Origin: Prevotella intermedia ATCC 25611 = DSM 20706
GTDB lineage: Bacteria; Bacteroidota; Bacteroidia; Bacteroidales; Bacteroidaceae
NCBI RefSeq assembly: GCF_001953955.1
Contig: NZ_CP019300.1
Location: forward strand, 248,001 to 312,000
Direction of reading: 5' to 3'
DNA length: 64,000 nt
A model generated the notes under the pieces. It saw only the letters and a program-made list of their open reading frames with translations. It did no database searches and was not told the DNA's origin. The position numbers and the translations under genes are program-made. Shown one piece after another: positions 15,704-62,611 of the stretch. How positions within the stretch are numbered: position 1 is the stretch's first letter; every line of letters starts with the position of its first letter.

Positions 15704-16019
15704 ATAAGATACTTAAAGAAAGAATTGATTACGATTCGATATGCTTATAATGAGAAAGAAGTGAAGTTTCTTCGGCAAGTTCTTACACCAAATTCACGCT
15801 ATTCCATGAATAAAAAGAAGCTAATAAAAGTGTAAATATTTTTCACAAGCTTATCTATTACGTAACTATCTAACCGTCAGTGTATTACAAAACCTATTGT
15901 TTTGCGTTCCAAAAGCGGCTGTTTTGCACGGTAAAAGTGTAGGTTTTGCATCGCAAAAGAGCCGCTTTCGCAACGTCAAAGCGCAGTTATCACTTTTTAA
16001 CAGAATTATCTTTACAAAA
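15704..16019 (+). repeat. Dispersed element copy A (extended form)
   Basis: The 190-bp core runs from 15830 (GTGTAAATATTT) to 16019 (TTTACAAAA). Tracts of AAAA or TTTT begin at 15889, 15900, 15911, 15922, 15933, 15944, 15955 and 15966, exactly 11 bp apart. An inverted repeat pairs AAAGCGGCT at about 15912 with AGCCGCTTT at about 15959. The flank 15704-15829 is shared with copy C (27381-27506), so the full element may be about 316 bp. It lies 45 bp beyond the stop of the PAP2 gene. Confidence 0.85.
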
Positions 16020-16064
16020 CTGATGCACTTCAACAGCGATGTATGGCAAAAATAAAAAGGAGCT

Positions 16065-17039
16065 TTACCGCTCCTTTTTCACCATTCCCCTTGTAAAATA
16101 GAACAACGGGAGATATACCAAGACTGCCGAAACAACACCTGCTACGGCGTCTACAAGATAGTGCGCTTGAATGTAAACCGTAGCGCAGCAAAGGAAAAAA
16201 TAGAGCGGAGCGAGCACGGCAAGCAACTTGTAATTGCGTGCATGTCCTATCAAGAACATACAAATGGTGCTGATTCCAACGTGCGAACTTGGGAAAGCTG
16301 CCGTTGGACGCTCGCCTGCTGCCTTGGCATCTTCTACTAACTGGTAGAAAAAACCGTCGGTATAACCGGGGCTTGGCAAACAGTCTTGATGCAGATTGAA
16401 GTAGTCGTGCACGTTAGGAAATACGCCTGCTACTATATTCTCCATTCCTACTGCCTTATAATAGAACGTAGGACCTGCCACAGGAACAAAGATAAAGACC
16501 ACATAATAGATGAAAAACGAAGCCAACATGATAAAGGCTACACGTTCGAATTCCTTGTAACGCCATATAAAAAAGTAAAATACCGTCAGCGCAATCATAG
16601 GATAATAAGCCGCATAACCCATATCGAAAAGCTCGCTGAAGACAGCATCGGGCAACTCTTTAGAGAACAGCAATGCTGGCTGATAGCCAAAAATATTCTG
16701 TTCCCACTGTGCAAACACGTGGTCGAGATTAGGCAAAAGCCTGTTGAATTCGTAAGTATCGGGATACCACCACGCAAGCAAGCCGAGCTGTGCAGCCACT
16801 CTTGCAAGGCGAGTGAAGCGACAGGGGAAGATACGGTACACCAACCACAGTGCAGCCGTTATGGCAACGATGCGCAATCGCCCATAAATCATAGCTTCGG
16901 GCGTCTCCATTTTGGTGTAAAAAAACAGAATCAGCACGAACGTGAACACCATATAAGCTGCCGCTGCCCACTCTATTGCCATCAATCCCTTTAGCGGTTT
17001 CTTCTCTATTCGGAAGAGGTCGAGTATGAATTTTACCAT
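16065..17039 (-). CDS. PAP2-superfamily membrane phosphatase or phosphotransferase (Aur1/Ipt1-like)
   Basis: A 324-residue polytopic protein with about six to eight membrane segments. The PAP2 catalytic signatures are visible near the C-terminus, FPSSHVGIST at about 252 and QAHYLVDAVAG at about 292. The length and N-terminal helices resemble the PAP2_3 group, which includes inositol-phosphorylceramide synthase-like enzymes, more than the short PAP2 phosphatases. It probably acts on a lipid phosphate at the inner membrane. The epimerase-like gene lies 30 bp upstream on the same strand, so the two form an operon. A sphingolipid role is an inference. Confidence 0.82.
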   Translation of the reverse strand: MVKFILDLFRIEKKPLKGLMAIEWAAAAYMVFTFVLILFFYTKMETPEAMIYGRLRIVAITAALWLVYRIFPCRFTRLARVAAQLGLLAWWYPDTYEFNRLLPNLDHVFAQWEQNIFGYQPALLFSKELPDAVFSELFDMGYAAYYPMIALTVFYFFIWRYKEFERVAFIMLASFFIYYVVFIFVPVAGPTFYYKAVGMENIVAGVFPNVHDYFNLHQDCLPSPGYTDGFFYQLVEDAKAAGERPTAAFPSSHVGISTICMFLIGHARNYKLLAVLAPLYFFLCCATVYIQAHYLVDAVAGVVSAVLVYLPLFYFTRGMVKKER

Positions 17040-17069
17040 TTTTATCCTTAATATCAGTTATCCTTCTTT

Positions 17070-18080
17070 TTAAATCCAACCATTCTCTTTATACCAATCC
17101 ATCGTTTCTTTCACGCCTCGCGCTAAGTCGTACTGTGGATTATAGCCGAGGTCGTCGATGGTTGGCTGTATGTTGCAACGCCAATTCCGCTGCTTCAGTA
17201 TTTGATACTTATCGTTGTTCAGCGGCGAAAGCTTGCCCGTTATACGGCCTAATATATCGCCAAAGAAAGTAACGATGCGCAAAAAGGCGATAGGAGCCTT
17301 TATTCTAATCCGCCAAGGCTTGCCCAATTCAGCGTGAATAAGATTGCTGAAAGTGGTGCTTTGATATACTTTTCCGTCGGTAAGGAAGTACGCACGCCCT
17401 GTTTTCCCCCTATCAAGTGCGAGGAAAACAGCTTGCACAAGGTCTTTTACATAAACAAACGTAATGTCCTGACGCTGAAAACCCACCGAGAAATCAGTAT
17501 GTCCCTTTATCGATTTCGCCATTAGGAAGTAGTCTTTCTCCCTCGGTCCGTACACACCCGTAGGACGAAGCGTTATGTAAGGCAACGTTTTTCCGTTGCA
17601 GGAAACGCTTGCCAATACTTTCTCTGCCTGCAATTTACTCTCGCCGTAAGCCGTATTGGGGCGTGGAATATCGGTTTCGTCAATGTCCTTGTAGGGCAAT
17701 TGCTCGTGAATGGCACCGTAAACGCTGAGGCTTGAAACGAAAACGAAACGCTCAAGCGGCATGTTCAGCGATAAAAGCGCATTTGCAAAATGCTGCGTTC
17801 CTTGTGTATTGATGCGGAAGAAATCGTCCCTCTTCACGCATTTCGTAGCTCCTGCCGCATGCACAACGTAGTCGAAGCAGTACGGCCGTAGCTGTTCGAT
17901 AAGCCGTTCTTCCGACGAAAAGTCAAGCTCAATAAAGTTTATGCGCTCGTCTTGCAAGTATTTGCGCGACGAAGTAGCACGCATTGCTGCCCACACTTCC
18001 ATGTCGTGGCGCAATGCTTCCTCAACGATGAACGAGCCAATAAAGCCCGAAGCTCCTGTTATTAATATTCTTTTTTTCAT
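17070..18080 (-). CDS. NAD-dependent epimerase/dehydratase (extended SDR)
   Basis: The start at 18080 is chosen because the Rossmann motif begins there (MKKRILITGASGFIGSFIVEE, a GxxGxxG). It gives 336 residues. The catalytic Ser-Tyr-Lys is visible as SSLSVYG followed by YGESKLQAE (YxxxK). RPTGVYGPREKDYFLMAKSI is the substrate-binding part. Members of this subgroup are conserved in Bacteroidales, and one has been reported to be a 3-ketosphinganine reductase. Together with the adjacent Aur1-like PAP2 gene this suggests a sphingolipid step, though a sugar-nucleotide enzyme cannot be excluded. It is the first gene of the two-gene operon, with a TATCTTTG -7 element upstream. Confidence 0.83.
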   Translation of the reverse strand: MKKRILITGASGFIGSFIVEEALRHDMEVWAAMRATSSRKYLQDERINFIELDFSSEERLIEQLRPYCFDYVVHAAGATKCVKRDDFFRINTQGTQHFANALLSLNMPLERFVFVSSLSVYGAIHEQLPYKDIDETDIPRPNTAYGESKLQAEKVLASVSCNGKTLPYITLRPTGVYGPREKDYFLMAKSIKGHTDFSVGFQRQDITFVYVKDLVQAVFLALDRGKTGRAYFLTDGKVYQSTTFSNLIHAELGKPWRIRIKAPIAFLRIVTFFGDILGRITGKLSPLNNDKYQILKQRNWRCNIQPTIDDLGYNPQYDLARGVKETMDWYKENGWI

Positions 18081-18101
18081 TAAAATAATGTGAAACGCTT
18101 G

Positions 18102-18109
18102 CAAAGATA
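18102..18109 (-). promoter_or_regulatory. -7 element for the epimerase/PAP2 operon
   Basis: It reads TATCTTTG on the minus strand, a perfect -7 match 22 bp upstream of the ATG at 18080. No good -33 is visible. The divergent rnr gene starts only 76 bp away, so the two promoters overlap closely. Confidence 0.5.
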
Positions 18110-18155
18110 CGAACTTTTTTGTTACTTTGTAAATATAATTAAAGCGCAATTGACA

Positions 18156-20431
18156 ATGGGAAAGGAAAAAAAGAGTAAAAGACGATTGACGAAAGCAGAA
18201 CTTGCTGAACAGATAAAAGGTTTTTTCCAAACGCAACCAGACGAGACTTTTAGTTTAAAACATATATTCAAAGCCTTAAAACTAACTACGCACCCCCTTA
18301 AAATGCTTGCCATTGACGTGATGGAGGAAATGGCGTGGGACGACTATCTTGCGAAAGTCGGCGAGAATGCTTACACGCTTAACACCAAAGGACAAGTGCA
18401 AGAGGGTGTCTTTCTTAGGAAATCGAACGGTAAAAACTCTTTCCTTCCCGACGATGGTGGTACTCCTGTTTTCATTTCAGAGCGCAATTCCATGTCGGCA
18501 CTCAATGGCGACAGGGTAAAAGTGCAGTTCTTTGCGCGCCGTCGCAACCATATAAAGGAGGCAATGGTTATCGAAATCTTGCAAAGAAAGAAGGAAACCT
18601 TTGTCGGACGACTGCAAGTAGAACCCGAAATAGCTTTCCTCATAACGCAGGAAAATCTCTTTGTGCACGACATTCTTATCCCAAAGAAAGCCTTGAATGG
18701 CGGAAAGACCGACGACAGAGCCGTTGTTAGAATTACGAAATGGCCCGATGCAAACCATAAGAACCTTGTGGGCGAAGTGGTAGACATACTCGGACAGGCA
18801 GGCGACAATGATGTAGAGATGAACACAATCCTTGCGCAATACGGCTTGCCTTACAAGTATCCGAAGGCAGTGGAGGAAGCAGCAGAAAAGATTAGTGCTG
18901 AGATAACGCTGCAAGACATTGCCGAACGCGAGGATTTCCGCAATATTTGGACTTGCACCATCGACCCTGAAGATGCGAAAGACTTCGACGATGCGCTTTC
19001 CATTCGTAAGTTAGAGAGTGGCTTATGGGAGGTTGGCGTCCACATAGCCGATGTTTCTCACTATGTAAAAGAGGGCGATATAATCGACAGGGAAGCACAA
19101 AAGCGTGCCACATCTATCTATCTTGTAGACCGCACCATACCGATGTTGCCCGAACGTCTTTGCAATTTAATATGTTCGCTCCGCCCCAACGAGGATAAAT
19201 TGGCATACAGTGCCATCTTCCAATTAGACGATAATGCGGAAGTAAAGCACTTCCACTTGGCACACACCATTATAAAAAGCGACCGCCGTTATGCTTACGA
19301 AGAAGTGCAACAGCTGTTGGAAGACAATGGCGTTGCAGACGGAACAGGCGAACCAGCACCCACTCCAGGCAAGGAAGGGTATAAGGGAGAGTATGCCGAA
19401 AAACTCATTATGCTCGACTGTCTGGCAAAGAAGCTGCGTGCAGAACGCATCAAGAAAGGTAGCGTGAAGTTCGATTCAGAAGAACTCCACTTCGATATAG
19501 ACGAACACGGAAAGCCTACCCGTTGTTATTTTAAGCGTTCGAAAGACGCCAATAAGCTCATCGAAGAGTTTATGTTGCTTGCCAATAAATACGTTGCACA
19601 GCACGTAGGAAAGGTTGTACGTGGCAAGAAGGCAAAGACATTGCCCTACCGTGTGCACGACAATCCCGACCCACAGAAGTTCGAAAACCTTCGCCAGTTC
19701 TCTGCAAAGTTCGGCTACAAGCTGAAATCGTCGGGCACTAAGGGCGCAACAGCGCGTGCATTGAACGCATTGATGGACGAAGTGGCGGGCAAAAGCGAAC
19801 AGAAGGTAATTCAAACTGTTGCCCTGCGCTCTATGATGAAAGCAAAATATACCACACACAACATAGGGCACTTCGGACTTGCATTCGACTATTACACCCA
19901 CTTTACATCTCCCATACGCCGTTATCCCGACACAATGGTGCACCGCTTGCTCACTCGCTACGAGCAGGGGGGCACTCTGCCAACCAAGACTACATTGAAG
20001 AGCTTTGCGAACACAGCTCGGATATGGAGCAAGTGGCACAGAATGCCGAACGCGATTCCATTAAATACAAGATGGTAGAGTTTATGGGCGACCACCTCGG
20101 CGAATGCTACGATGCCCACATCAGCGGCATTCAAAGCTATGGTATCTATGCTGAAATAGACGAAAACCACTGCGAAGGTATGATACCGATGCGCGATTTG
20201 GACGACGATTACTACGAATTCGACGAGAAAAACTATTGTCTTGTCGGGCGTCGCCGCCACCACAAGTACCAATTGGGCGACCCTATACGCATTCAGGTGG
20301 CAAATGCGAACTTAGAACGAAAGCAGCTCGACTTTACCTTAGCTGACGACCAAGAGGACAAGATGCCCACAAGAGCACCTCTGAACACTAAATCGGGCAG
20401 ACCGACAAAGGTACGAAGAAGACGCAGATAA
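18156..20431 (+). pseudogene. rnr: Ribonuclease R with a one-base frameshift in a G-tract
   Basis: The ATG at 18156 precedes MGKEKKSKRRLTKAELAEQ, a basic RNase R start. Cold-shock OB domains, the RNB catalytic region (TIDPEDAKDFDDALS, Asp-rich magnesium site) and the C-terminal S1 domain plus a basic tail (VRRRRR) are all present. The frame breaks at a G6 run, 19967-19972. With seven Gs the reading continues as EQGGHSANQDYIEELCEHSS into MEQVAQNAERD and on to 20431, giving 758 residues, normal for the family. As written, the protein would lose its S1 domain and end at 20078. A homopolymer sequencing error is the simplest explanation; slippage is possible. RNase R degrades structured RNA from the 3' end. 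Confidence 0.88.
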
Positions 20432-20439
20432 ACACGTAA

Positions 20440-21252
20440 ATGATGATGAAACGACTCGAAATAGCAATCGTTTGCCTGCTCATAGCACTTGCTGCACAGG
20501 CACAAGAACAGCAATATCTTCGACTGAAGGGCTACTACCGTGTTTATCAGTCTACCGACTTTATGCTTAGCTATTTCATCGACGGTATGGTTGAAATGTA
20601 TGTACCGCTCGATACAACCGCCAAGAAAGCGACCTTCGTAGACCGCAAGTTTCTTGGCGAACGCCGACGAAAAGCCAAACAAGCCAATGGAGACGAAACG
20701 TTTGTCCGCATAAACATGCCAGCTTTAGAGTCGGTACCACTCATCGAAAGCATTAAAAGCGAGGAATATTCCACCCGAAACAATGGCGACATTTACCGCT
20801 GGGCTGACAAATGCGGTACGATAACCCTGCACAAGTTTCCCGACCAAAAGATTGCAACCACCGGAATAACCATTAAAATGGATAATCTGACGGGGCAACG
20901 CAACCACGAAATAGAGATGAACCAACTGAAGATGTATGGCATCATTGCACGTATGACGCAGTTCGACGAGCAGGAAACCTATGCAGAACACGCAGGAACA
21001 TACACCTTAAACGATTTGTTCTCGGCGCACAAGCACCAAACCTTTATGGCGCGCTACCGTGGCGAGGACGTAGACGAACAGATAGATGTATGGTCTGATT
21101 TTTACGTAATCGACCGAACCACAATATCTGAAAAGGAAATGAAGCGCATTAAGAAAGCCAAAAACAACACACTAACTTTCAATATCCCCCCTTCTGTCCC
21201 ACAGTTAGACGATAATATCTTACAGGCGTGGACACAAATGGTGGAATATTAA
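20440..21252 (+). CDS. Exported protein of unknown function
   Basis: A 270-residue protein with a clear signal peptide (MMMKRLEIAIVCLLIALAAQAQ, cleavage after AQA). The mature part begins YLRLKGYYRVYQSTDFMLSYFIDGMVEMYVP and is rich in beta-strand patterns. I recognise no catalytic motif or family. It starts 8 bp after the rnr stop, so it is probably cotranscribed with rnr. It ends at a good intrinsic terminator. Likely periplasmic or outer-membrane associated. Confidence 0.75.
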   Translation: MMMKRLEIAIVCLLIALAAQAQEQQYLRLKGYYRVYQSTDFMLSYFIDGMVEMYVPLDTTAKKATFVDRKFLGERRRKAKQANGDETFVRINMPALESVPLIESIKSEEYSTRNNGDIYRWADKCGTITLHKFPDQKIATTGITIKMDNLTGQRNHEIEMNQLKMYGIIARMTQFDEQETYAEHAGTYTLNDLFSAHKHQTFMARYRGEDVDEQIDVWSDFYVIDRTTISEKEMKRIKKAKNNTLTFNIPPSVPQLDDNILQAWTQMVEY

Positions 21253-21262
21253 TTTCTAAACG

Positions 21263-21310
21263 AAACGATTTGCAGCTGCCTATATTCAGCATTTGCAAAT
21301 CGTTTTTTTT
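21263..21310 (+). terminator. Intrinsic terminator of the rnr transcript
   Basis: A 12-bp stem (AAACGATTTGCA with TGCAAATCGTTT) followed directly by a run of eight T residues. Confidence 0.85.
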
Positions 21311-21316
21311 ATAACG

Positions 21317-21506
21317 TTTTGTAAAGATAATTCTGTTAAAAAGTGATAACTGCGCTTTGACATTGCGAAAGCGGCTGTTTTACGATGCAAAACCTACGCT
21401 TTTACCGTGCAAAACAGCCGCTTTTGGAACGCAAAACAATAGGTTTTGCAATACGTTGATATACAGATAGTTATATAATAGTTATACTTGTGAAAAATAT
21501 TTACAC
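21317..21506 (-). repeat. Dispersed element copy B
   Basis: 190 bp, in the opposite orientation to copy A. It begins TTTTGTAAAGATAATTCTG and ends with GAAAAATATTTACAC. The central inverted repeat is perfect here (AAAGCGGCTGTTTT with AAAACAGCCGCTTT). It belongs to the subfamily carrying GTGATAACTGCGCTTTG. It occupies most of the 449-bp gap between the rnr transcript terminator and the RluA-family gene. Confidence 0.85.
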
Positions 21507-21701
21507 TTTTATTGTTTGTTTTCCGATTATAAAACAAGAAATTCAGGCGTATTTTATACTCGTATAAGTAGATTGTCTTGCATTGAATAATCTAAATAAA
21601 AAATGTTCGTAAACATAATATTTGCAGTGTGGGAGCAGTATTGCGAACGAAAAGCAGTATATTTGCAAGGCTATTCTTTAATAGGATAAAAACAGCGGAA
21701 A

Positions 21702-23399
21702 ATGGAAGATAAGTGTTTTCATAGATTGCCAAATGGCAATGAGGTGGCAGCTTTGGGCAAGGCGAAAGTCTTTCCCAATCCTTTCTTTTACGAACCTTCT
21801 CCGCTTGCACGCATTGCTGCCACTTTGTTGCAACAGTCGCTCCCTGTGCTGAAAGAGGGCAAAATGTTTGGCGTTCTAATAGTGGAAAACAAGGGCGAGT
21901 TAGGTTATCTGCAAGCTTATTCGGGACAATTGGAAGGTGTTAGCGACGATGGTTTCGTGCCGCTTGTATTCGATTACTTGCAGTCCGATGGATATTTTAA
22001 GACGCACGAAGCTGAAATAACGGCATTAAACTGCGAAATTGAAACGTTGAAGCAGTCGGACGATTATGCAAAAGCAGTAAAAAAACTTGCCGACCTTAAA
22101 GTTGAAGCGCAGAAAGTTGTGGCAGAGGCACAGCAGGCAATGGCAGTAGCGAAGCAGTTGCGCGACGAACGGCGGAAGAAAACCTTTGTTTCGGAGGACG
22201 AACAAAAGGAAATGATTCGCGAAAGTCAGTATATGAAGGCAGAATTGCATCGAACCAAGAAGCGGTATGCAGCGTTGTTGGAAACGGCAGAAGCAGAAAC
22301 GGAGGAGTATAACAAGAAAATAGCGCAGCTGAAGAATATTCGTAAACGCAAGTCTGATGAACTTCAACGTTGGCTTTTCTCGCAATTCACTTTCTTGAAT
22401 GCAAAGGGCGAGCGTAGCGACTTGCTGTCTATCTTCCGCAATTACTATTTGCAACATAGTCCGCAGTCGGTACTCGCCACGCATTTTGCCACTATGGGCG
22501 AACAGGCGACGCTGTTTCCACCATCTGGAACGGGCGAGTGTTGCGAACCAAAACTGCTTCAATACGCTTTTTCGCACGGTATGCGCCCTGTGGAAATGGC
22601 AATGTTCTGGTGGGGAGAGCCGCCGAAAACCGAGATACGGCAGCACGGACAGTTCTATCCAGCGTGCAATGGGAAGTGTAAACCCTTGCTGACGTGGATA
22701 TTAAAAGGTATGAATGTGGCTGCCAATGCGTTGGAAACGGAAAGCGAACAAAGTATAGATATTGTTTACGAAGACCCCGATTTGGCAATTATAGTGAAGC
22801 CAAGCGGTATGCTCACCATGCTTGGGCGCAGCAACCGACCATCTGTTGAAACCATCTTGCGCCAACGATGGAACAACAACGATACGCCCATCATCGTGCA
22901 TCGCCTCGATATGGCAACCAGCGGACTACTTGTGGTGGCACGAAACAAACAAGCACACAAGCATCTGCAGGCACAATTCAAGGCAAAAACAGTTAAGAAA
23001 CGCTATGTAGCCTTGCTATCTACCAAGTTGTTAGATAGGGTTGAATTGCCCAAAAAAGGCACTATTTCGCTACCATTGTGTGCCGATGTACTCGACAGAC
23101 CGCGCCAGATTGTAGATAGAAACAAAGGAAAATCAGCCATTACACATTATAGAATAATAGGAAAAACGCCTTTGTCAGACAGTCGTTATAGCGAGGCAGT
23201 AAAGGTGGAACTAAGTCCTATAACAGGGCGCACACACCAATTGCGAGTTCATTGTGCACACCCTGAAGGTTTGGCGTGCCCCATTCTTGGCGATACGCTA
23301 TACGGAAAACGTGCAGACAGACTCTACCTGCACGCCGAATATCTTGAATTTACGCACCCAACTACGGGAAAACGCATTCGTTTCGAGAAGAAAATATAA
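21702..23399 (+). CDS. RluA-family pseudouridine synthase with long N-terminal coiled-coil extension
   Basis: A 565-residue protein. The C-terminal third (about 345-565) is an RluA-type pseudouridine synthase domain, with IVYEDPDLAIIVKPSGMLT, the catalytic motif HRLDMATSGLLVVA (Asp nucleophile) and ITGRTHQLRVHCAHP. The preceding part contains a Lys/Glu/Ala-rich coiled coil (about 110-230) and a conserved region with QRWLFSQFTFLNAKGE. This long form is common in Bacteroidota. The target uridine in rRNA or tRNA cannot be read from the sequence. It has no close operon partner, and the DnaA-box cluster follows it. Confidence 0.88.
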   Translation: MEDKCFHRLPNGNEVAALGKAKVFPNPFFYEPSPLARIAATLLQQSLPVLKEGKMFGVLIVENKGELGYLQAYSGQLEGVSDDGFVPLVFDYLQSDGYFKTHEAEITALNCEIETLKQSDDYAKAVKKLADLKVEAQKVVAEAQQAMAVAKQLRDERRKKTFVSEDEQKEMIRESQYMKAELHRTKKRYAALLETAEAETEEYNKKIAQLKNIRKRKSDELQRWLFSQFTFLNAKGERSDLLSIFRNYYLQHSPQSVLATHFATMGEQATLFPPSGTGECCEPKLLQYAFSHGMRPVEMAMFWWGEPPKTEIRQHGQFYPACNGKCKPLLTWILKGMNVAANALETESEQSIDIVYEDPDLAIIVKPSGMLTMLGRSNRPSVETILRQRWNNNDTPIIVHRLDMATSGLLVVARNKQAHKHLQAQFKAKTVKKRYVALLSTKLLDRVELPKKGTISLPLCADVLDRPRQIVDRNKGKSAITHYRIIGKTPLSDSRYSEAVKVELSPITGRTHQLRVHCAHPEGLACPILGDTLYGKRADRLYLHAEYLEFTHPTTGKRIRFEKKI

Positions 23400-23485
23400 G
23401 GTAATGGTTCGTATTCAATAGAAACTTATTGGTAGAAACAACTTTTCGTTTTGTTGTTGAAAAGTAGGCATTGAGAATTTTCAAA

Positions 23486-23803: not shown

Positions 23804-23875
23804 ACCTATCATACTACTATTTTCTTTTTTCTTTTGAAAAGAATAAATAAGAATATAATGTAACGAACAAGAAAA

Positions 23876-24697: not shown

Positions 24698-24766
24698 AAA
24701 CGCTTTTTCGTCGAAAAGAATAAGCGAAGTGGTCGAAAATTGTTTTCGACCTTTTTATATTATAGT

Positions 24767-24774: not shown

Positions 24775-24798
24775 CAGCAAAATAAAAAACAACGAACA

Positions 24799-27359: not shown

Positions 27360-27380
27360 GTTTTCAATAGAATTAAACCA

Positions 27381-27696
27381 ATAAGATGCTTAAAGAAAGA
27401 ACTGATTATAATTCAATATGCTTATAATCAAAAAGAAGTGAAGTTTATTCGTTTAGTTCTTACACCAAATTCACGTTATGCAATGACCGAAAAGAAGGTA
27501 ATAAAGGTGTAAATATTTTTCGTAAAGATAACTATCGCTTAACTCTCTAATCATCAACGCATTACAAAACCTATTGTTTTGCGTTCCAAAAGCGGCTCTT
27601 TTGCACGGTAAAAGCGTAGGTTTTGCAATGCAAAACAGCCGCTTTCGCAACGCCAAAGCGCAGTTATCACTTTTTAACAGAATTATCTTTACAAAA
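27381..27696 (+). repeat. Dispersed element copy C (extended form)
   Basis: The 190-bp core is 27507-27696 (GTGTAAATATTT to TTTACAAAA), with the alternating A/T tracts at 11-bp steps. The upstream flank from 27381 (ATAAGATGCTTAAAGAAAGA) matches the flank of copy A over about 125 bp. It lies between the beta-barrel terminator and the ispG terminator structure. Confidence 0.85.
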
Positions 27697-27766
27697 TTAA
27701 ACAGAAAATCTCTCACAGTTTCAGTAGGAAGTTTCCTAAAGAATACTTGAGAGATTTTCTGTTTAA
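27697..27766 (-). terminator. Large hairpin, probable ispG terminator
   Basis: Arms of 19 bp (TTAAACAGAAAATCTCTCA and its complement) at 27697-27715 and 27748-27766. They enclose a small second hairpin TAGGAA-GT-TTCCTA. It sits 37 bp beyond the ispG stop and abuts copy C of the dispersed element exactly. Confidence 0.7.
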
Positions 27767-27803
27767 CCTATTTTCTTATACCGAACTAACGTATGTTATA
27801 GCT

Positions 27804-33321: not shown

Positions 33322-33511
33322 TTTTGTAAAGATAATTCTGTTAAAAAGTGATAACTGCGCTTTGACATTGCGAAAGCGGCTCTTTTGCGATGCAAAACAT
33401 ACGCTTTTACCGTGCAAAACAGCCGCTTTTGGAACGCAAAACAATAGGTTTTATAATACTCTGATAACGAGTTAGTTATACAATATATATGTTTATAAAA
33501 AATATTTACAT
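33322..33511 (-). repeat. Dispersed element copy D
   Basis: 190 bp, from TTTTGTAAAGATAATTCTG to AAAATATTTACAT, in the orientation of copy B. It lies in a divergent intergenic region, between the rpoN-group promoter and the promoter of the head-GIN lipoprotein. Its central inverted repeat has one mismatch. Subfamily with GTGATAACTGCGCTTTG. Confidence 0.85.
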
Positions 33512-47974: not shown

Positions 47975-48165
47975 TTTTGTAAAGATAATTCGTTGAGAAA
48001 ACGGTAATTTCGATTTTGCATTGCGAAAGCGGCTCTTTTGCAACGCAAAACCTACGCTTTTACCGTGCAAAACAGCCGCTTTTGCAATGTAAAACAATAG
48101 GTTTTGTAATGCGCTGATAAAGAAGATGTTACACGATAGATATACTTTGAAAAATTCTTTACACT
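47975..48165 (-). repeat. Dispersed element copy E
   Basis: 191 bp from TTTTGTAAAGATAATTCG to TTCTTTACAC. Together with copy G it forms a second subfamily, with CGGTAATTTCGATTTTGC instead of GTGATAACTGCGCTTTG. It retains the alternating tracts and the GCGGCT/AGCCGC inverted repeat. It lies about 105 bp from the GT9 stop. Confidence 0.85.
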
Positions 48166-53094: not shown

Positions 53095-53125
53095 CACCAA
53101 AAGAAAATAAACGTTTATTTAGAAT

Positions 53126-54229: not shown

Positions 54230-54247
54230 TTCAGGGAGGAATAAAAG

Positions 54248-55090
54248 ATGCTGAACAATCTGCTTTATATAGCTTGGCAACCCGACGAATACCTTGTGCG
54301 CTTCGGCTCAATGGGCATTCGTTGGTACGGAATGTGCTGGCTTGTGGGCTTTGCCGTTGCATATTTCCTTATGCGATGGCTCTTCAAACGCCACAAGATA
54401 GCCGACGAAAAGTTCGACCCGATGTTTGTTTACGTCTTCCTTGGCGCATTTATCGGTGCCCGATTGGGGCATTGTTTCTTTTACGAACCGCAAGACTTCT
54501 TCGACTCGTGGCAGCATTTCGTTGAGATATTTCTCCCTATAAAGTTCCTTGCTGGCGGCGGTTGGAAGTTCGTAGGCTATCAAGGCTTGGCTTCCCACGG
54601 CGGAGTTATCGGACTCCTCGTTGGTCTTTACCTTTACATAAAGCGCACAAAGCTGAATGCTTGGGTCGTGTTAGACTTTATGGGCATCTGTTCTACCGTA
54701 ACATCGGTGTTCATTCGCTTGGGCAATCTGATGAATTCGGAGATTATCGGAAAGGTAACCGATGTGCCTTGGGCGTTCGTTTTCTACGATGTCGATACCT
54801 ATCCGCGCCACCCCGGACAGCTTTACGAGGCGATTGCCTACTTTGTTTTCTTCTGGGTTATCTTCCTTATTTATAGGAAATATCCTAAGAAAGTGGGTAC
54901 AGGACTTTACTTCGGCTTATGCCTTGCGCTTATTTTCACTTTCCGTTTCTTCATCGAATACACAAAGGAAGTGCAAGTAGACTTCGAGGCTGGCTTGCCA
55001 ATTGATATGGGACAGATACTCAGCATACCGTTTATAGCACTCGGTATATGGTCGGTTATGCGGTCGAGAGGGAAAGAATACAATGCGTAA
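54248..55090 (+). CDS. lgt: Prolipoprotein diacylglyceryl transferase
   Basis: 280 residues with about seven membrane segments. The family signatures are GARLGHCFFYEP near 77, SHGGVIGLL near 117 and RLGNLMNSEIIG near 157 (the RxGNxxNxE core). It transfers diacylglycerol to the lipobox cysteine, the first step for the several lipoproteins coded in this window. It is downstream of ychF in one operon with a terminator after it. Confidence 0.95.
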   Translation: MLNNLLYIAWQPDEYLVRFGSMGIRWYGMCWLVGFAVAYFLMRWLFKRHKIADEKFDPMFVYVFLGAFIGARLGHCFFYEPQDFFDSWQHFVEIFLPIKFLAGGGWKFVGYQGLASHGGVIGLLVGLYLYIKRTKLNAWVVLDFMGICSTVTSVFIRLGNLMNSEIIGKVTDVPWAFVFYDVDTYPRHPGQLYEAIAYFVFFWVIFLIYRKYPKKVGTGLYFGLCLALIFTFRFFIEYTKEVQVDFEAGLPIDMGQILSIPFIALGIWSVMRSRGKEYNA

Positions 55091-55108
55091 AATATGCAAT
55101 AATATAAA

Positions 55109-55137
55109 AGGTAGGAAGTTTTTCCTGCCTTTTTTTA
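55109..55137 (+). terminator. Intrinsic terminator after lgt
   Basis: A stem AGGTAGGAA / TTCCTGCCT (one mismatch or G-U) with a T-rich loop, followed by seven T residues. Confidence 0.85.
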
Positions 55138-55169
55138 TTCCCTTCTTACCTTATTTTATGTGAATAATC

Positions 55170-55200
55170 TTTATAATGTGAAATAAAATGTGTAAGTTTG
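55170..55200 (+). promoter_or_regulatory. Promoter for the methyltransferase leader
   Basis: A -7 TAAGTTTG at 55193-55200 and a TTTA at 55170-55173 in the -33 position (19-bp spacer, one mismatch). Transcription should start near 55207, about 300 nt before the methyltransferase ATG. Confidence 0.55.
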
Positions 55201-55206
55201 CAAATG

Positions 55207-55511
55207 AGTAAAAGCGTCCATCAGGAAATTGATGGTTCGACAAAGCTCAAATTTTTGTTGGTAAATAAATAACAAGCGTTTGCTGTTTATTCTATAAAAC
55301 GTTCTGGAAACTTGGCCGTAGAAAGAACCAATGCAGTTGGAATAAGTTGTAAACGTCTGCGCAATATGCGTGGGCGTTTAACTTATCTTCTGCATTGTGG
55401 GTTCGGCCAAGTACCTCAGAACGTGGATAAGTTTGCGTCCACGTTCTTTCGTATTTGGTCGTTCCTCGTTTTTAATTGAGTATTCGGTATTCGTGCAAAG
55501 TAACTTTTACT
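55207..55511 (+). ncRNA. Long structured leader RNA with competing hairpins
   Basis: A stem of about 126 nt spans 55299-55424. It pairs ACGTTCTG with CAGAACGT, ACTTGGCCG with CGGCCAAGT, AATGCAG with CTGCATT, and ATAAGTT with AACTTAT. AAACGTC continues to a loop near 55363-55367. A second perfect 10-bp hairpin, AGAACGTGGA with TCCACGTTCT (55418-55447), reuses AGAACGT, so the two structures exclude each other. It is either the leader of the methyltransferase gene or a separate small RNA ending near a T-run at 55469-55473. I recognise no known RNA family. Confidence 0.5.
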
Positions 55512-56483
55512 ATGGCGAATAAAACTTTAACCTTAGCCAAAAAGGCTAAGAACGATGAGTTCTACACGCAACTTGGCGATATAGAACGAGAAATGAAACA
55601 CTACAAACAACATTTTAAGGGAAAGACAGTGCTGTGCAACTGCGACGACCCACGTGTGAGCAACTTCTTTAAGTATTTTGCTCTGAACTTTGAACTATTG
55701 GGCTTGAAAAGGCTTATTGCTACTTGCTACAAGAGTAAAGAAATCAATACCTTCTCTCAAAACAATTCGGAACAAGCCGTTTATATTGTTTACGAAGGCG
55801 ATAAAAACGACAACCATATCGTTGATAATGAAGAAATAGAGGTTAAACCATTAAAAGGAGATGGCGATTTTCGCAGCAAAGAATGTGTAGAACTATTAAA
55901 GCAAGCCGACATAGTCGTTACTAATCCGCCCTTTTCTTTGTTCCGTGAGTATATTACACAGTTAATAGAGTATGATAAAAGTTTCATTGTAATAGGTAAT
56001 TACAATGCAATAACCTATAAGGAAATATTCCCTTTGATAAAAAATAATAAGTTATGGCTCGGCAATGGCTTTTCAGGCGGAAATGCTTATTTTAATATTA
56101 TCCCTACTGGGCGTACATTTGCAAATGGTGTATATGATGAAAGTACACAGTTAGTAAAGTTCCGTAACTGCTGTTGGTATACGAATCTTGATATTCAAAA
56201 ACGCCATGAAGAACTTATTTTGTACAAACGTTATAGTCCAGAAGAATATCCAAAGTACGATAATTATGATGCTATCAACGTTAATAAAGTAAAGGAAATA
56301 CCGATGGACTATGATGGAGTAATGGGCGTTCCAATAACTTTTATGGATAAGTACAACCCTAAGCAGTTTGAAATAGTAGGCATTGATAGATACGTTGCAG
56401 ATAATCCAAATTATGGACATCGCTTTACTATTAGTGGAAAAGAGATTTATGCAAGAATATTAATTAGAAGAAAGACTTTATAA
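55512..56483 (+). CDS. EcoRI-family adenine-specific DNA methyltransferase
   Basis: The start at 55512 gives 323 residues and begins MANKTLTLAKKAKNDEFYTQ, the M.EcoRI-type N-terminus. VLCNCDDPRVSNFFKYFALNF and LKRLIATCY follow, both characteristic of the family. The adenine-methyltransferase motif IV NPPF is at 138-141 in ADIVVTNPPFSLFREY. The enzyme should methylate N6 of an adenine in a short site; GAATTC is the M.EcoRI site, but the site here is not determined. An EcoRI-like endonuclease is not next to it; instead a DUF262-HNH gene follows after 71 bp. A structured leader precedes it. Confidence 0.88.
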   Translation: MANKTLTLAKKAKNDEFYTQLGDIEREMKHYKQHFKGKTVLCNCDDPRVSNFFKYFALNFELLGLKRLIATCYKSKEINTFSQNNSEQAVYIVYEGDKNDNHIVDNEEIEVKPLKGDGDFRSKECVELLKQADIVVTNPPFSLFREYITQLIEYDKSFIVIGNYNAITYKEIFPLIKNNKLWLGNGFSGGNAYFNIIPTGRTFANGVYDESTQLVKFRNCCWYTNLDIQKRHEELILYKRYSPEEYPKYDNYDAINVNKVKEIPMDYDGVMGVPITFMDKYNPKQFEIVGIDRYVADNPNYGHRFTISGKEIYARILIRRKTL

Positions 56484-56554
56484 TATTGTTGTTTGTGAAA
56501 CAAAAAAGAGAGCATAATAAAATATATATAGAAAGCTTTATATAGTAAGTAATT

Positions 56555-57658
56555 ATGAAAATAGAATTAAAACCTATCAAATTAAAAGACCTTTTTCAAG
56601 GATATAAAGATGATGCCGAAGAGGGTGTAGTGGCTTATGGCGAACTTCTTGATGTTCGTCCGAAATATCAACGTGAGTTTGTTTATAAAGACGAACAACG
56701 CAATGCTGTAATTGACACGGTGCGAAAAGGCTTTCCTCTCAATGTAATGTATTGGGTGAAAAAAGACGATGGTGGCTTCGAGGTGTTGGACGGGCAGCAG
56801 CGCACGCTTAGTATTTGCCAATATCTTAGCAACGATTTCTCTATAAAAGAAGAGTATTTCCACACCCTGACAGACGACCAACAAGCGCAAATACTGGATT
56901 ACGAACTAATGGTTTACTTCTGTGAAGGTACCGACAGCGAGAAGTTGGAATGGTTTAAAACCATCAATATAGCTGGAGAAAAGCTCTACGACCAAGAATT
57001 GCGCAATGCTGTATATACGGGAGAATGGCTCACCGATGCAAAACGCCACTTCTCGAAGACAGGTTGTCCTGCTATGGGATTGGGCGATAAGTATGTGAAA
57101 GGTGTAGCAATACGCCAAGAAATTTTACAGCTTGTATTGTGTTGGATTAACGATGGGGCGAAAGGAACACCCGATGAGAAGATACGACAATATATGGCAG
57201 ACCATCAACACGATGCCAATGCCAACGAATTGTGGCTCTATTTCGTGCAAGTTATAAACTGGGTGCAGACCATTTTCCCAACTTACCGACGTGAAATGAA
57301 AGGAGTGCCATGGGGAATACTTTACAACGAGTTTGGACAACAGCCGTTAGACACAAAGAAACTTGAAGATGAAGTTGCGAAACTTATGGCAGACGATGAA
57401 GTGCAGAACAAGAAAGGCATTTACGAATATGTGCTTACACGAAACGAAAAGTATTTGAATATTCGCACTTTCGAGCAGCGTATAAGTCGTGCGGTATATG
57501 AAAAGCAGCAAGGAATTTGCCCTATTTGTGGAGAACATTTCGATATTGAAGATATGGAAGCTGACCATATTATACCTTGGCACAAAGGTGGAAAGACGGA
57601 AAAAGACAATTGTCAGATGCTTTGTATGAAGTGTAATCGCACTAAATCGGGGAAGTAG
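56555..57658 (+). CDS. DUF262-HNH nuclease (GmrSD/BrxU-like)
   Basis: 367 residues. The DUF262 domain is visible in LLDVRPKYQREFVYKDEQRN at about 31-50 and the nucleotide-binding VLDGQQRTLS at about 77-86. The C-terminal HNH domain runs from about 318: ICPICGEHFD, then ADHIIPWHKGG and CMKCNRTKSGK, with two CxxC zinc pairs and the catalytic His. Such proteins are NTP-dependent, often modification-sensitive, nucleases in phage defence. The tandem arrangement with a methyltransferase suggests a restriction partner that spares methylated DNA. Whether it cuts unmodified or modified DNA cannot be read from sequence. Confidence 0.88.
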   Translation: MKIELKPIKLKDLFQGYKDDAEEGVVAYGELLDVRPKYQREFVYKDEQRNAVIDTVRKGFPLNVMYWVKKDDGGFEVLDGQQRTLSICQYLSNDFSIKEEYFHTLTDDQQAQILDYELMVYFCEGTDSEKLEWFKTINIAGEKLYDQELRNAVYTGEWLTDAKRHFSKTGCPAMGLGDKYVKGVAIRQEILQLVLCWINDGAKGTPDEKIRQYMADHQHDANANELWLYFVQVINWVQTIFPTYRREMKGVPWGILYNEFGQQPLDTKKLEDEVAKLMADDEVQNKKGIYEYVLTRNEKYLNIRTFEQRISRAVYEKQQGICPICGEHFDIEDMEADHIIPWHKGGKTEKDNCQMLCMKCNRTKSGK

Positions 57659-57712
57659 TTTTTTAGATGTAAAGGAGTTGTTATAGCAGAAAATAGCCCT
57701 TGTTTTGTAAAG

Positions 57713-57892
57713 ATAATTCTCTTAAAAAATGATAACTGCGCTTTGGCATTGCGAAAGCGGCTCTTTTGCGCTGCAAAACCTACGCTTTTACCGTGCAAAA
57801 GAGCCGCTTTTGGAACGCAAAACAATAGGTTTTGCAAAGTGTTGATAACGAGATAGTTAGACAGTGGATATTGTTTTGAAAAATATTTACAC
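57713..57892 (-). repeat. Dispersed element copy F
   Basis: 180 bp from TTTTGTAAAGATAATTCTC to AAATATTTACAC, reaching the mutS stop codon (57894). The central inverted repeat is perfect (AAAGCGGCTCTTTTGC with GCAAAAGAGCCGCTTT). It lies between the converging DUF262-HNH and mutS genes. Confidence 0.85.
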
Positions 57893-57893
57893 C

Positions 57894-60560
57894 TTATTTG
57901 CTGTTTGGAAGTACAATTCGCTTGATTTCGTTGAGCTTATTCAACGCCTCAACAGGTGTAAGGTTGTTGATGTCCAAGCCTATGATTTCGTCGCGTATCT
58001 GCGTCAGTACAGGGTCATCGAGTTGGAAGAACGAAAGCTGAACCCCTTCCCTACTCTGCTCAAGCTTCTCTGCCGACGGCTTTCCTACACTGCCTACCTG
58101 CGCATTGTCAGCTTCCAATTCTTTCAAGACAACGTTCGCACGCTTCACAATCGACTTTGGCATACCGGCAATGTCGGCTACGTGAATACCGAAAGAGTGC
58201 TCGCTGCCGCCTCGTTCCAGTTTTCTCACGAAGATAATCTTGCCGTCCACCTCTTTCACAGATACGTTGAAGTTCTTTATTCGGCGGAAGTTCTTTGCCA
58301 TTTCGTTCAGTTCGTGGTAGTGCGTGGCGAAGAGTGTACGTGCCGCAGCACGCGGTTGTTCGTGCAGATACTCTACGATAGCCCACGCTATGCTGATGCC
58401 GTCGTAGGTACTTGTGCCACGTCCAAGCTCGTCGAAGAGTACCAACGAGCGGGGTGTAACATTGTTCAGAATGTTCGATGCCTCAGTCATTTCAACCATA
58501 AAAGTAGATTCTCCGAGCGAAATATTGTCGGAAGCACCCACTCGTGTGAAAACTTTATCGACCAAACCGATTCTTGCGCCCTCTGCTGGGACGAAACTAC
58601 CTATCTGCGCCAATAGTACTATGAGTGCGGTTTGACGCAACAGAGCCGATTTACCAGCCATATTCGGACCTGTTATCATCATAATCTGCTGTTGCTCGTT
58701 GTCGAGATATACGTCGTTGGGTATGTATGGTTCGCCAAGCGGCAGTTGGGTTTCTATTACGGGGTGGCGGCCTTTCTTTATGTCAATCACCATACTGTCG
58801 TCTACCACGGGGCGCACATACTTGTTTTCTTCGGCTATGTTTGCGAATGCCAACAAGCAGTCGAGGCGTGCCACAAGGTTGGCATTGATTTGTATTTGCG
58901 GGATAAACTCCTGCATATCCTGCACCAATTCGTTGAAAAGACGTGCTTCGAGAGCGAGTATTTTCTCGTCGGCACCAAGTATTTTGGCTTCGTATTCCTT
59001 CAGCTCTGGGGTAATGTAGCGTTCTGCCTGCGCAAGGGTTTGCTTGCGAATCCAGTCGGCAGGCACCTTGTCTTTAAAGGTATTGCGCACTTCAAGGTAG
59101 TATCCGAAAACGTTGTTGAAGCCTATCTTCAGCGAATTGATGCCTGTTTGAGCCGCTTCTTTCTCCTGAATGTCGAGCAAAACCTGCTTTCCGTTGTCGC
59201 GAATGGAGCGTAATTCGTCCAGTTCGGCGTTGAAACCGTGCGCAATCACGTCGCCTTTGGCAACCAAGTGTGGAGGGTCGGGCTTTATTTCCTGCTCTAT
59301 TCGGTCGCGAATAGACTCGCAGAGGTTCAGCTGTTCCCCTACCCGCTTCAAGGCTTCGTTGTTCGCATAGAGGCAAGCGGTCTTCATTGGCTGTATCGCA
59401 CGTAAGGCTATCTTCAGCTGAACCACCTCTCTCGGTGACACTCTGCCTGCTGCCACCTTTGAAATGATGCGTTCCAAGTCGCCCATACGGTGGAGTTGGT
59501 CGTTCAGGCATTGACGGAAATCGGGCTCGCGGAAGTAGTATTCCACTATGTCCAATCGCTCGTTAATGGGCTTTACGTCCTTCAATGGGAACACAAGCCA
59601 GCGATGCAGCATTCTGCCACCCATTGGTGTGATGGTTCTGTCTACTACGTTGAGCAGCGACGAACCGTCCTCCTGCATGGGTGCGACAAGTTCCAAGGAA
59701 CGAATGGTGAAGCGGTCGAGTCGCACATACTTCTCTTCTTCGATGCGAGCGAGCGACGTTATGTGGTTGATGTTGGTGTGCTGGGTCAGTTCCAAGTACT
59801 GCATAATAGCCCCGGCAGCTATTACTCCGTTGTTCAGATGGTCTACACCGAAACCCTTTAGGTTCTTTGTTCCGAAGTGTTTCAGTAGTTTTTGCCGTGC
59901 AGAAAGGTCGGTAAACACCCAGTCTTCCATTTCATACACACACAGGCGTGTACCGAAATGGCGTTCAAAGTCAGACTTTCGGGCACGGTCGTACAGCACT
60001 TCCTTTGGCGAAAAGTTGCCAATGAGCTTTTCAACATAGTCGAACGTGCCCTCACCAGTGAGAAATTCGCCTGTCGAAATGTCGAGAAAGCTCACACCAC
60101 AAGAACCTTTGCCGAAGTGAACAGCCGCCAAGAAGTTGTTTTCCTTGTAGTTCAGCACGTTGTCGCCCATAGCAACGCCAGGCGTAACAAGTTCCGTTAT
60201 GCCTCGTCGCACCATTTTGTCTTCGGCAGACAAGCCCCGTTTGCCCTTCAAAGCCTCACGTTTCTTCTTCGGGTCTTCGAGTTGGTCGCATATTGCTACA
60301 CGTTTTCCAGCACGAATAAGCTTTGGCAAGAAAGTGTCGAGTGCGTGATGAGGAAATCCAGCCATCTCGTCGCCCGCTGCTGCACCGTTGTTTCGGCGTG
60401 TCAGCGTTATGCCGAGTATTTTAGAAGCTTCTATGGCATCGTCGCAATACGTTTCGTAGAAGTCGCCACACCTAAAGAGCATTAACGCATCGGGGTGCTT
60501 CTCTTTCATCGAAAAGAATTGTCGCATCATCGGAGTGAGCCCTTTGTTGTCTTTTGCCAT
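57894..60560 (-). CDS. mutS: DNA mismatch repair protein MutS
   Basis: 888 residues. The mismatch-reading Phe-x-Glu is in [10 protein letters not shown] near 37. Walker A is [18 protein letters not shown] near 635 and Walker B is [16 protein letters not shown] near 715. The connector, clamp and core domains lie between. It detects mismatches and recruits MutL. It has a strong promoter and ends at dispersed element F. Confidence 0.97.
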
Positions 60561-60606
60561 ATTGTTTTTACCTTTCTTACCTTTCGTTGTCGTAATTCGT
60601 GAAATG

Positions 60607-60638
60607 CAAAAATACGAATTTTCGGCATATTGTCCAAA
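60607..60638 (-). promoter_or_regulatory. Promoter of mutS
   Basis: On the minus strand a -33 TTTG (60635-60638) and a -7 TATTTTTG (60607-60614) are separated by 20 bp. A strong match 46 bp upstream of the ATG. Confidence 0.75.
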
Positions 60639-60691
60639 CGATAGCCAATTTATTTGGGCTTTGTCTGATAGTCTGTTTCAAGAAATCGGCA

Positions 60692-62185
60692 CTATAATCT
60701 GAAACCGATTCCGAGCCTTGCATTGTAAGTCGTTGTGTGGCAATTGGGGCGATAGCAGTAATGGAAATTGCGGAAAACAAAGAGCGAAGAAGCCTCCATA
60801 AACCAATGTTTCGACAACGAAATTTCTATTTTGGGTTGTAAAAGAAAGGTTACTGCCCTGCCACGGTCGCCCATAACGCTGTAATCAACGTATTCTTTTG
60901 TTTCGTCTTCATCTTCGTAGCTATGCCAAGAAGCAAGGTATTTCATATCGGAAAGTAAGCGAAAGCGGACGAAAGACCCATAATCGATGCCCGAATAGTT
61001 TTTAATGCTGTAACCGCTGCCCACGCTGTAATCGCGGTTGTAGCGGTTGTCGTGATAATCGGATAGGGCACCGCCCAGCAAAACACCATTGAAGTATAGC
61101 TCGGAAAAGCATTTAAATCGTCCTGACTCATAGTACCACGCTACACCAACGCCCATACTTGCGGCTTCAGACACCTTATAAGGCACGGTGCCCTTGATGG
61201 AATCGGTGGAGTAGAAGTCGAAATTCTGATACAATCCTATGGTTGCCGTGCTGTTATTGGTTTGCAGCAATGGCCATTGGCGCAGCTGTCCGATGATGTT
61301 TGCATTGCTGACGAGCGATAGTTCCATACTGGGACTAACCCCTAAGTCTACTCTAAAGAAGTCGTAAGGGCGTTTGTTAGAGGCATTGACGGGCGAACCG
61401 TAAGAGAAACTGATGTTGAAAACAGGCCGATAGTCAGGCTTTATACCTGTGGTATGGCTGTTGAGCATTTGCGCGCTTCCGAGAATGGAAAAGTGGAGTG
61501 GGGTATTGTTGATTGTTTCCAGACTGCTGCGAGTGTTGGTTGTGCGGAAAGCGGTGCCCGTTACCATTCGTGTTAAACCTCGGGAAGGGTTCAACACCAT
61601 ACCGATTATTTCGCGAACGACACGCTCACAGCCACGTTTGCGGTTGTCGAAAATGCGGTTTGAAATTCTATGTAGTACTTCGCCCATAGCCAATCCACCT
61701 GCCGATGTTGCCAAAAAGTCGTTGATGGAAGGACGTTCCATTTCTCCGCTGATTTCCCACATCAAGCTTCCACCAACGACGTAGGGTATCGCCTCAACGT
61801 AGGATAAGCCGTTGCTACGTGCTGCGTTGTAATAGATTGAGCCGTGATAGGGGTGCGAAAACAAGTTGGTTCTGAAGATATCGCTGTCCCAATACCATTT
61901 TGTGGGCGACAGATTCCTACCTATCGTCTTCCACGTAACCTTTGAAAAGGGGGCGTCGAGTATGTATCTGTCGAAAGCGAGAATAGCAAGATTAGCACCA
62001 ACTACGTGTGTTGCGGTGCGCCAAGGATATTTCCGAACTGCTGTATCTTCGGGAATAGAGTCTTGCTGCTGTGTTATCTCTATTTTAATTGAATCCTTAT
62101 AATTATCAAGCTGTGTATTACTGACGGTTGAATCCGCTTGAGCGGCAAACAGATTGGCCAGCAATAATATATTTGCAAGTAGCAT
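60692..62185 (-). CDS. DUF3943 outer-membrane-like protein
   Basis: 497 residues with a signal peptide (LLANILLLANLFAAQA). The DUF3943 region is visible from about 60 to 190: THVVGANLAILAFDRYILD, FRTNLFSHPYHGSIYYNAARSNGLSYVEAIPY and VGGSLMWEISGEMERPSINDF. The C-terminal half has the alternating strands of a beta-barrel and ends in ARLGIGFRL, a typical outer-membrane terminal strand. The function is unknown. It is not close to any other gene on its strand. Confidence 0.83.
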   Translation of the reverse strand: MLLANILLLANLFAAQADSTVSNTQLDNYKDSIKIEITQQQDSIPEDTAVRKYPWRTATHVVGANLAILAFDRYILDAPFSKVTWKTIGRNLSPTKWYWDSDIFRTNLFSHPYHGSIYYNAARSNGLSYVEAIPYVVGGSLMWEISGEMERPSINDFLATSAGGLAMGEVLHRISNRIFDNRKRGCERVVREIIGMVLNPSRGLTRMVTGTAFRTTNTRSSLETINNTPLHFSILGSAQMLNSHTTGIKPDYRPVFNISFSYGSPVNASNKRPYDFFRVDLGVSPSMELSLVSNANIIGQLRQWPLLQTNNSTATIGLYQNFDFYSTDSIKGTVPYKVSEAASMGVGVAWYYESGRFKCFSELYFNGVLLGGALSDYHDNRYNRDYSVGSGYSIKNYSGIDYGSFVRFRLLSDMKYLASWHSYEDEDETKEYVDYSVMGDRGRAVTFLLQPKIEISLSKHWFMEASSLFVFRNFHYCYRPNCHTTTYNARLGIGFRL

Positions 62186-62421
62186 CTATACAGTCTTTCT
62201 TGGCGTAAAGATAGCCAATATTGTGATAATCAAATAAAAAGACAGATAGGTTTTAACTACAATTATGATTAGAAGAATGCTTTATTGTTTTTTTAATGGT
62301 CGGTCTATATTTACCGAATACCGATATATAGTTTCGCTTTTCCGAATAGAAAGAACCCTTTAGCTGTCTGTTCTGCTACCCTTGTATTCTTCGTTTCATA
62401 GGCGGAAAACAGACGATAATA

Positions 62422-62611
62422 ATGTAAAAGTTTTTCACAAACATAAATCTTGTGTAACTCGTTAGTTATCAATGCGTTGCAAAACCTATTGTTTTGCGTT
62501 CCAAAAGCGGCTGTTTTGCACGGTAAAAGCGTAGGTTTTGCATTGCAAAAGAGCCGCTTTCGCAATGCCAAATCGAAATTATCGTTTTTCCTATAAATTA
62601 TTTTTACAAAA
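62422..62611 (+). repeat. Dispersed element copy G
   Basis: 190 bp from ATGTAAAAGTTTTTCAC to TTTACAAAA, in the orientation of copy A. It belongs to the second subfamily with copy E (TCGAAATTATCG in this orientation). The alternating tracts and the GCGGCT/AGCCGC inverted repeat are kept. It lies in the 519-bp divergent gap between the DUF3943 and YbjQ-like genes, and the rest of that gap shows nothing definite. Confidence 0.85.

Follow-up and report, generated by a model that had tools for sequence, protein, structure and literature searches.

PINSR repeats of Prevotella intermedia as a probable modular element: a palindrome-array core, a longer form with IS982-type ends and exchangeable unit centres

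The window analyzed here, a stretch of 64,000 nucleotides from Prevotella intermedia ATCC 25611 (NZ_CP019300.1, positions 248,001 to 312,000), carries seven intergenic repeats that are copies of PINSR, an identification based on shared features. We propose, with a probability of roughly 0.6, that PINSR is a non-autonomous element of modular build. The core, in which conserved arms enclose four 22-bp palindromic units, would be one branch of a superfamily of arrays spread over the genus Prevotella; in the P. intermedia group, this core would have been incorporated into a unit of roughly 455 bp that has inverted repeats of the IS982 family of insertion sequences (IS) at its ends and whose insertion, most likely the work of an IS982 transposase acting in trans, would have duplicated 7 bp of the target. 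Most copies would be old, having lost the IS982 ends or never carried them, and would sit where they do least harm, after genes and above all between convergent genes. One unit pair would be kept complementary, allowing a long hairpin to form, while centres may be copied between units and between elements, such that a species replaces its centres widely and still keeps the pair. This reading would correct the published view that this abundant repeat, found in an oral bacterium, lacks inverted repeats and is distinct from miniature inverted-repeat transposable elements (MITEs), and it names a resident transposase as a candidate. Hundreds of short palindromes would also allow paired turnover at orthologous loci to be followed, with a bearing on the question of selection versus template switching in hairpin evolution.

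PINSR (P. intermedia/nigrescens group-specific repeat) received its name in 2015, when an intergenic repeat of 188 bp was described that occurs 177 and 184 times in two P. intermedia strains; it was reported also from P. nigrescens and, by polymerase chain reaction (PCR), from P. falsenii and P. disiens (Naito et al., PMC4755523). The window repeat agrees with this description in being about 188 bp long, intergenic, high in copy number and devoid of coding sequence, and the likeness extends to the scale of the copy number, the host group and a role in inversions. An earlier note on this DNA, made from the sequence alone, knew of no description; its claim of novelty, staked on the repeat matching no named family, falls because such a family exists. 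PMC4755523 is the only account found in a literature search that reached few subscription journals. All seven copies, intergenic and in both orientations (B, D, E and F one way; A, C and G the other), are where the note had placed them, except that copy F starts at 57703 instead of 57713. Calling them near-identical was too strong: identity is 61–87% within two direct families and 80–91% in near-full-length inverted pairs of window copies, and averages about 79% pairwise across the 68 full-length copies (profile score >100 over 170 model positions) found in 764 kb of the genome, window included. These amount to one copy per 11.2 kb; the repeat is not limited to the window, the outcome that the note had named as a refutation. 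Genome-wide, single units matched 893 times at ≤1 mismatch, versus 12 for the reversed pattern, and the 40 hits scored out of 293 candidates in a genome search spanned nearly the whole query at 86–100% identity. Copies on the two contigs of this genome (1.97 and 0.71 Mb) differ as groups (0/2,000 permutations as strong). Judged by one protein, the closest named hits to this genome are P. aurantiaca, P. pallens, P. falsenii and P. disiens, at 89–94%.

The core consists of four 22-bp units flanked by arms of about 48 bp (left) and about 55 bp (right). Each unit reads GCAAAAS-N5-STTTTGC plus a 3-bp linker, and A4 and T4 tracts are thus spaced every 11 bp. The usual centres (GCGGCTS, CCTACGC, SAGCCGC and CAATAGG) occur in varying order, but the frames remain tied to their positions: GCGAAA starts unit 1 in 64/68 copies, TTTTAC ends unit 2 in 66/68 and TTTTGG ends unit 3 in 52/68. 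The TGTAAA/TTTACA termini described in the earlier note are real, although in the core alone they form only an imperfect match, and the long form was inserted at repeats of about 20 bp that flank the core at distances of about 100 and 165 bp. Nor do the note's boundaries hold, since conservation goes on for about 17 bp at the left and 38 bp at the right on average, and reaches about 97 bp left and 165 bp right of the core in a subset of copies.

Inserts longer than the core first became visible at presence/absence loci. Among 129 copies collected with iterated profiles from two genomes, that of the window (G000) and that of a close relative (G017), a left extension is present in 18, a right extension in 19, both in 12 and either in 25. 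The fullest copies measure about 455 bp and are bounded by inverted repeats of about 20 bp that resemble the ends of a resident IS982-family IS: the outermost stretch of the extensions, ACGTGAGTTCGATATAAGAA, also terminates a resident element of 1,025 bp that encodes an IS982-family transposase (NF033520, 3.4e-84, over cut-off; Pfam DDE_Tnp_1_3). This element occurs five times in the stretches read, two of the occurrences having identical flanks and perhaps being one duplicated copy, and the genome contains 16 matches to this transposase family, 14 of them over cut-off. An IS repeat scoring at least 14/20 lies at the left side of 12/18 copies with the extension versus 1/111 without, and at the right side of 13/19 versus 1/110.

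Nine copies in which both repeats are called at ≥13 span 451–529 bp, and their 7-bp flanks agree at 7, 6, 6, 5, 3, 3, 2, 1 and 1 positions, that is, at 5–7 of 7 in four copies and 1–3 of 7 in five. For comparison, the IS copy at C1:218882 has TATCAAA present twice. A tenth long copy (G017 L327:12508) is a 455-bp unit between TAAAACA and TAGAACA, and its empty site in the window genome is a single TAAGACG at C1:558717-558723, with flanks of 613 and 619 bp aligned at 89 and 94% and junctions read from local alignments. The search for target duplications and empty sites suggested in the note was thus rewarded by 7-bp flank agreement in several long copies and by one clean empty site. Other candidate empty sites were set aside: the one at C1:173184 of the window genome is an indel of some 405 bp that lacks terminal repeats and may reflect a deletion in G017; three in G017 (C72:41398, L337:13177 and L331:15036) have junctions that are not clean; and one after mutS in P. 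pallens was not counted, as the neighbour may differ.

In its long form, then, PINSR is a MITE, but TGTAAA/TTTACA are not its ends. This departs from the published account, which finds no terminal inverted repeats and for that reason sets PINSR apart from MITEs (PMC4755523). Judged by its anatomy, the long form would very probably be moved by the IS982 transposase. The resident IS may be ISPi1, to which PMC4755523 ascribes the inverted repeats of ISPg3 and a 7-bp duplication. PINSR shares with the MITEs of IS elements a non-coding body, terminal repeats in common with a resident IS and 7-bp flank duplication, but differs in that its interior is a palindrome array with a wider history of its own and not a deleted IS. 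A MITE with an internal minisatellite in the related oral bacterium Porphyromonas gingivalis (PMC4596501) offers a parallel combination of MITE and internal tandem repeat. The note's picture of a non-coding element that could be moved in trans, like a MITE, is supported for the long form, with its IS982 inverted repeats, flank agreement and empty site, but no IS982 ends were found for most copies.

At least one pair of complementary centres (6 or 7 of 7 positions) was found in 65/68 core copies, formed by units 1 and 3 in 50 copies, 1 and 2 in 13, and 2 and 3 in two. When each unit column was shuffled 2,000 times, a control that ignores the descent of the copies, the mean was 49.9 and the maximum 60. 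On a tree built from the arms, which leaves 47 of 65 inner branches open, the arrangement types do not group together but lie scattered (24 changes versus a shuffled mean of 25.4, as low in 44/200). In G017, which has 35 copies in 389 kb and a MutS 98% identical to that of the window genome, 28 of 34 copies carry a perfect pair versus a shuffled mean of 18.2 and maximum of 26; at 6/7 positions the count is 31 versus 27.2 (23/2,000 as high).

Unit centres turn over at orthologous loci. The criterion for secure orthology was a flank alignment of 400 bp or more at ≥85%, which six loci pass, five of them on both sides; these were kept from 12 G017 candidates rechecked with 1,200-bp flanks. Of the six that were dropped, five either had no match or matched only through the extensions they share, and the last fell slightly below the threshold, with 1,185 bp of one flank at 84.7%. 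At least one centre differs at all six loci, and a complementary pair is present at five. At four of the six, both partners of the pair of the window genome differ (at least 3/7 bases) while a pair is kept; after mutS, for example, GCGGCTC/GAGCCGC is matched by CCGTAGG/CCTACGG in G017. Copying templated by a hairpin and selection on the hairpin, as RNA or as single-stranded DNA, both fit these data, and we lean towards copying combined with weak selection; that centres are copied, whether through template switching or through conversion, is our inference, as is any role of the hairpin.

Selection is the basis of an alternative in which the core is an RNA or DNA hairpin maintained for unit pairing, e.g., as a bidirectional transcription terminator or a 3′-end stabilizer. 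The complementary pairs, although the paired units vary, and the paired changes at orthologous loci are in line with it, as is one example copy, whose two strands each give a better fold than shuffled sequences do (z −2.8 and −3.9). So is the placement of the copies: with junctions classed by a home-made gene caller (536 genes), they occupy 27/66 convergent, 33/403 tandem and 8/65 divergent junctions. In tandem junctions, however, copies start a median of 134 bp past the upstream stop, which is far for a primary terminator, and end a median of 278 bp, never less than 134 bp, before the downstream start. No covariation was found in the outer stem, perfect pairs are also expected from template switching between inverted units, and other species show no convergent bias. 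The only match to an Rfam model at gathering score in the window is a tRNA, and the repeats match no known structured RNA. Overall, we regard this alternative as rather unlikely.

The modular reading places the core within a wider superfamily. A search of 398 genomes of the genus with a two-unit pattern gave matches in 77, that of the window included, and 65 remain after dropping 12 in which the reversed control also matched; 22 of these 65 have at least 10 matches. In a sample of the family, 19/47 genomes of the genus matched versus 3/202 of other genera, with one match each. At the place of copy D, arrays are also found in P. falsenii with nearly the same centres, in P. aurantiaca and P. pallens with arms and array kept and other centres, and in P. 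disiens and P. corporis without PINSR arms. PCR had limited PINSR to one clade (PMC4755523), whereas the present analysis finds diverged copies in P. aurantiaca and P. pallens, and related arrays genus-wide.

The centres are species-specific, RNYGCCC in the genome G378 and GGTCATS-like in G010, while CGGNCCG centres come from G194 and G284, two genomes whose reversed control also matched. In the 38 arrays of G378, adjacent opposite units are perfectly complementary in 19/37 cases versus 9.7 expected (1/4,000 as high), an excess that is significant with 38 arrays and was not with 19. Adjacent units of the same orientation are identical in 6/94 versus 18.7 expected (3/4,000 as low). For opposite units, the excess is gone at a distance of two (6/42 versus 6.7) and gives way to a deficit at a distance of three (1/39 versus 8.6). 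We set at slightly below even odds the broader proposal that Prevotella-wide palindrome arrays inherit the hairpin as a structure and not as a sequence, with 7-bp centres proper to each species, paired swaps by copying between units or elements, and at least one capture between IS982 ends.

The same arrays might instead offer phased sites to which a nucleoid protein or another DNA-binding protein attaches, the centres shifting with the specificity of the protein. The A4/T4 tracts every 11 bp, the 22-bp register, preserved across species in almost every array read, and the species-specific centres would suit this explanation, but no protein has been identified and the complementarity between particular units would be left unexplained; we consider it improbable. 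Short palindromic units in intergenic clusters, with species-specific sequence, also recall repetitive extragenic palindromic (REP) sequences and bacterial interspersed mosaic elements (BIMEs) spread by Y1 transposases (REP-associated tyrosine transposases, RAYTs), enzymes that occur in Bacteroidetes (PMC6006769). By contrast with REP/BIME elements (PMC3733652, PMC6006769), PINSR has an exact 22-bp unit period, follows no GTAG tag rule and has no Y1 transposase in its genome. PF01797 gave 0 matches in G000 and was unmatched in 8 of 13 other array-bearing genomes tested, and the REP-type mobility that the earlier note had entertained is thus not supported and was rejected as highly improbable.

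Several observations weigh against the modular reading as a whole. As many as 104/129 copies have neither extension, and the rarity of an IS repeat of at least 14/20 beside copies lacking the extension (1/111 and 1/110) means that core-only copies do not have the same ends. The one perfect 7-bp duplication (L017) is TATATAT, a simple repeat; an inner inward repeat stands in the right extension about 38 bp from the core, and the long unit may therefore be composite; and 16 copies have a second type of left flank in common. At the core-only ends of 80 copies, no clear target duplication was found (6/80 at the best offset versus 4/80 in the control). No IS982 repeat was found near the arrays of G378, and G065 has arrays but no IS982 match. 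Demanding 7/7 positions reduces the pairing to a modest excess (39/68 versus 31.6 shuffled, 42/2,000 as high). Lastly, the convergent bias is not general, because the 57 classed loci of other species (13 convergent, 33 tandem and 11 divergent, with four more unclassable) lack it.

Because core-only copies, the second flank, G378 and G065 lack the IS982 link, the core is a module wider than its association with IS982. The spread of most copies can only be inferred, since 104/129 show no such flanks, and that IS982 was the main route for all copies of the P. intermedia group is a tentative idea which we hold with some doubt. The same absence of IS982 flanks gives room to another explanation, in which the core itself is mobile, moved by an enzyme that recognizes its own ends (TTGTAAAGATAATT, TTGTGAAAAATATTTAC), the IS982-bounded form being a late capture of one core copy. 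The core end motif is nearly absent outside elements in the 764 kb, and core-type arrays of G378 carry similar TTGTAAAGATATTTC motifs at their ends but no IS982 repeats, as this explanation would expect. Against it, core ends show no target duplication, no enzyme is linked to them, and the longer, gene-bearing relative with TGTAAA/TTTACA-type ends that the note had suggested looking for was not seen in the 764 kb read. We judge it unlikely, if still to be taken seriously.

Promoters at the element ends were also considered and rejected: the end motif TATCTTTAC is one base off the promoter box TAnnTTTGC, yet it is rare before genes, with 2 occurrences in 265 upstream regions versus 34 of TATCTTTGC. 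The box itself peaks in the window genome 25–75 nt before starts, with 134 sense and 62 antisense occurrences in these 265 regions. A phage or plasmid vehicle was likewise discarded, as 50,697 phage records contain no match to the repeat and the plasmid collection yields one matching record, a P. nigrescens replicon. This replicon (NZ_CP082843.1), 568 kb long and filed as a plasmid, carries replication and biosynthesis genes and looks like a second chromosome. Among 83 viral-contig stretches with an end motif, the core is present in five; these IMG/VR contigs (L251, L253, L301, L305 and L322) perhaps represent host DNA beside prophages.

Beyond their own history, PINSR repeats stand where the genome has been rearranged, and inversions between them have been reported (PMC4755523). 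In P. falsenii, the segment beside copy B lies inverted, and a PINSR connects it with the gene that adjoins copy C; recombination between copies B and C, which are inverted relative to each other, would produce this arrangement. In P. nigrescens, a PINSR marks the junction of two segments that lie 42 kb apart in the window genome. As separate observations on the window genome, G000:C2 has inverted near-identical stretches near 10 kb and 79 kb, each of which contains a solitary right end of a PINSR as well as an IS982 copy between the same flanks, a large inverted duplication. At G000:C2:138320-139131, an IS982 copy seems to have inserted in a PINSR right arm, leaving a lone right end. An ISL3-family IS (NF033550, 7.4e-98) lies within unit 1 of a PINSR copy at G000:C1:173995-175298, with GCGAAAGC on both sides.

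The features of the window are listed in Table 1. P. falsenii carries a similar sequence at the place of the left extension of copy C.

Table 1. PINSR copies, their extensions and a further palindrome array in the 64,000-nt window.
Feature	Position	Strand	Remarks
PINSR core copy A	15830..16019	-	Four-unit array 15887-15971
PINSR core copy B	21317..21506	+	Array 21365-21449
PINSR core copy C	27507..27696	-	Array 27564-27648
PINSR core copy D	33322..33511	+	Array 33370-33454
PINSR core copy E	47975..48165	+	Array 48023-48107; carries the second type of left flank
PINSR core copy F	57703..57892	+	Array 57751-57835; adjoins the mutS stop codon
PINSR core copy G	62422..62611	-	Array 62479-62563
Right extension of copy A	15665..15825	-	IS982-type terminal repeat at 15665-15684, 15/20 positions
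Left extension of copy C	27697..27792	-	IS982-type terminal repeat at 27773-27792, 18/20 positions
Right extension of copy C, partial	27373..27502	-	Outer repeat 13/20, too degenerate to call confidently
Degenerate unit array without PINSR arms, second array family	9586..9713 (about)	.	–

Other arms and flanks were noticed around arrays of the same genome. The second array family has arms around GTGCAACGAAATG and TTTTCAAAATTAACA, unlike those of PINSR, at positions 109500, 436400, 464560, 549680 and 560950 of the G000 C1 stretch (add 148000). A third kind of arm, GAAATATCTTTACAG and TTTGTAAAGATATTTT, accompanies arrays on G000 C2 near 89.9, 92.5 and 167.9 kb. The left flank shared by 16 PINSR copies (e.g., positions 13670, 34678 and 486676 of the C1 stretch) holds a palindromic repeat, TAGGGGCGTGATTTATCACGTTCCT.

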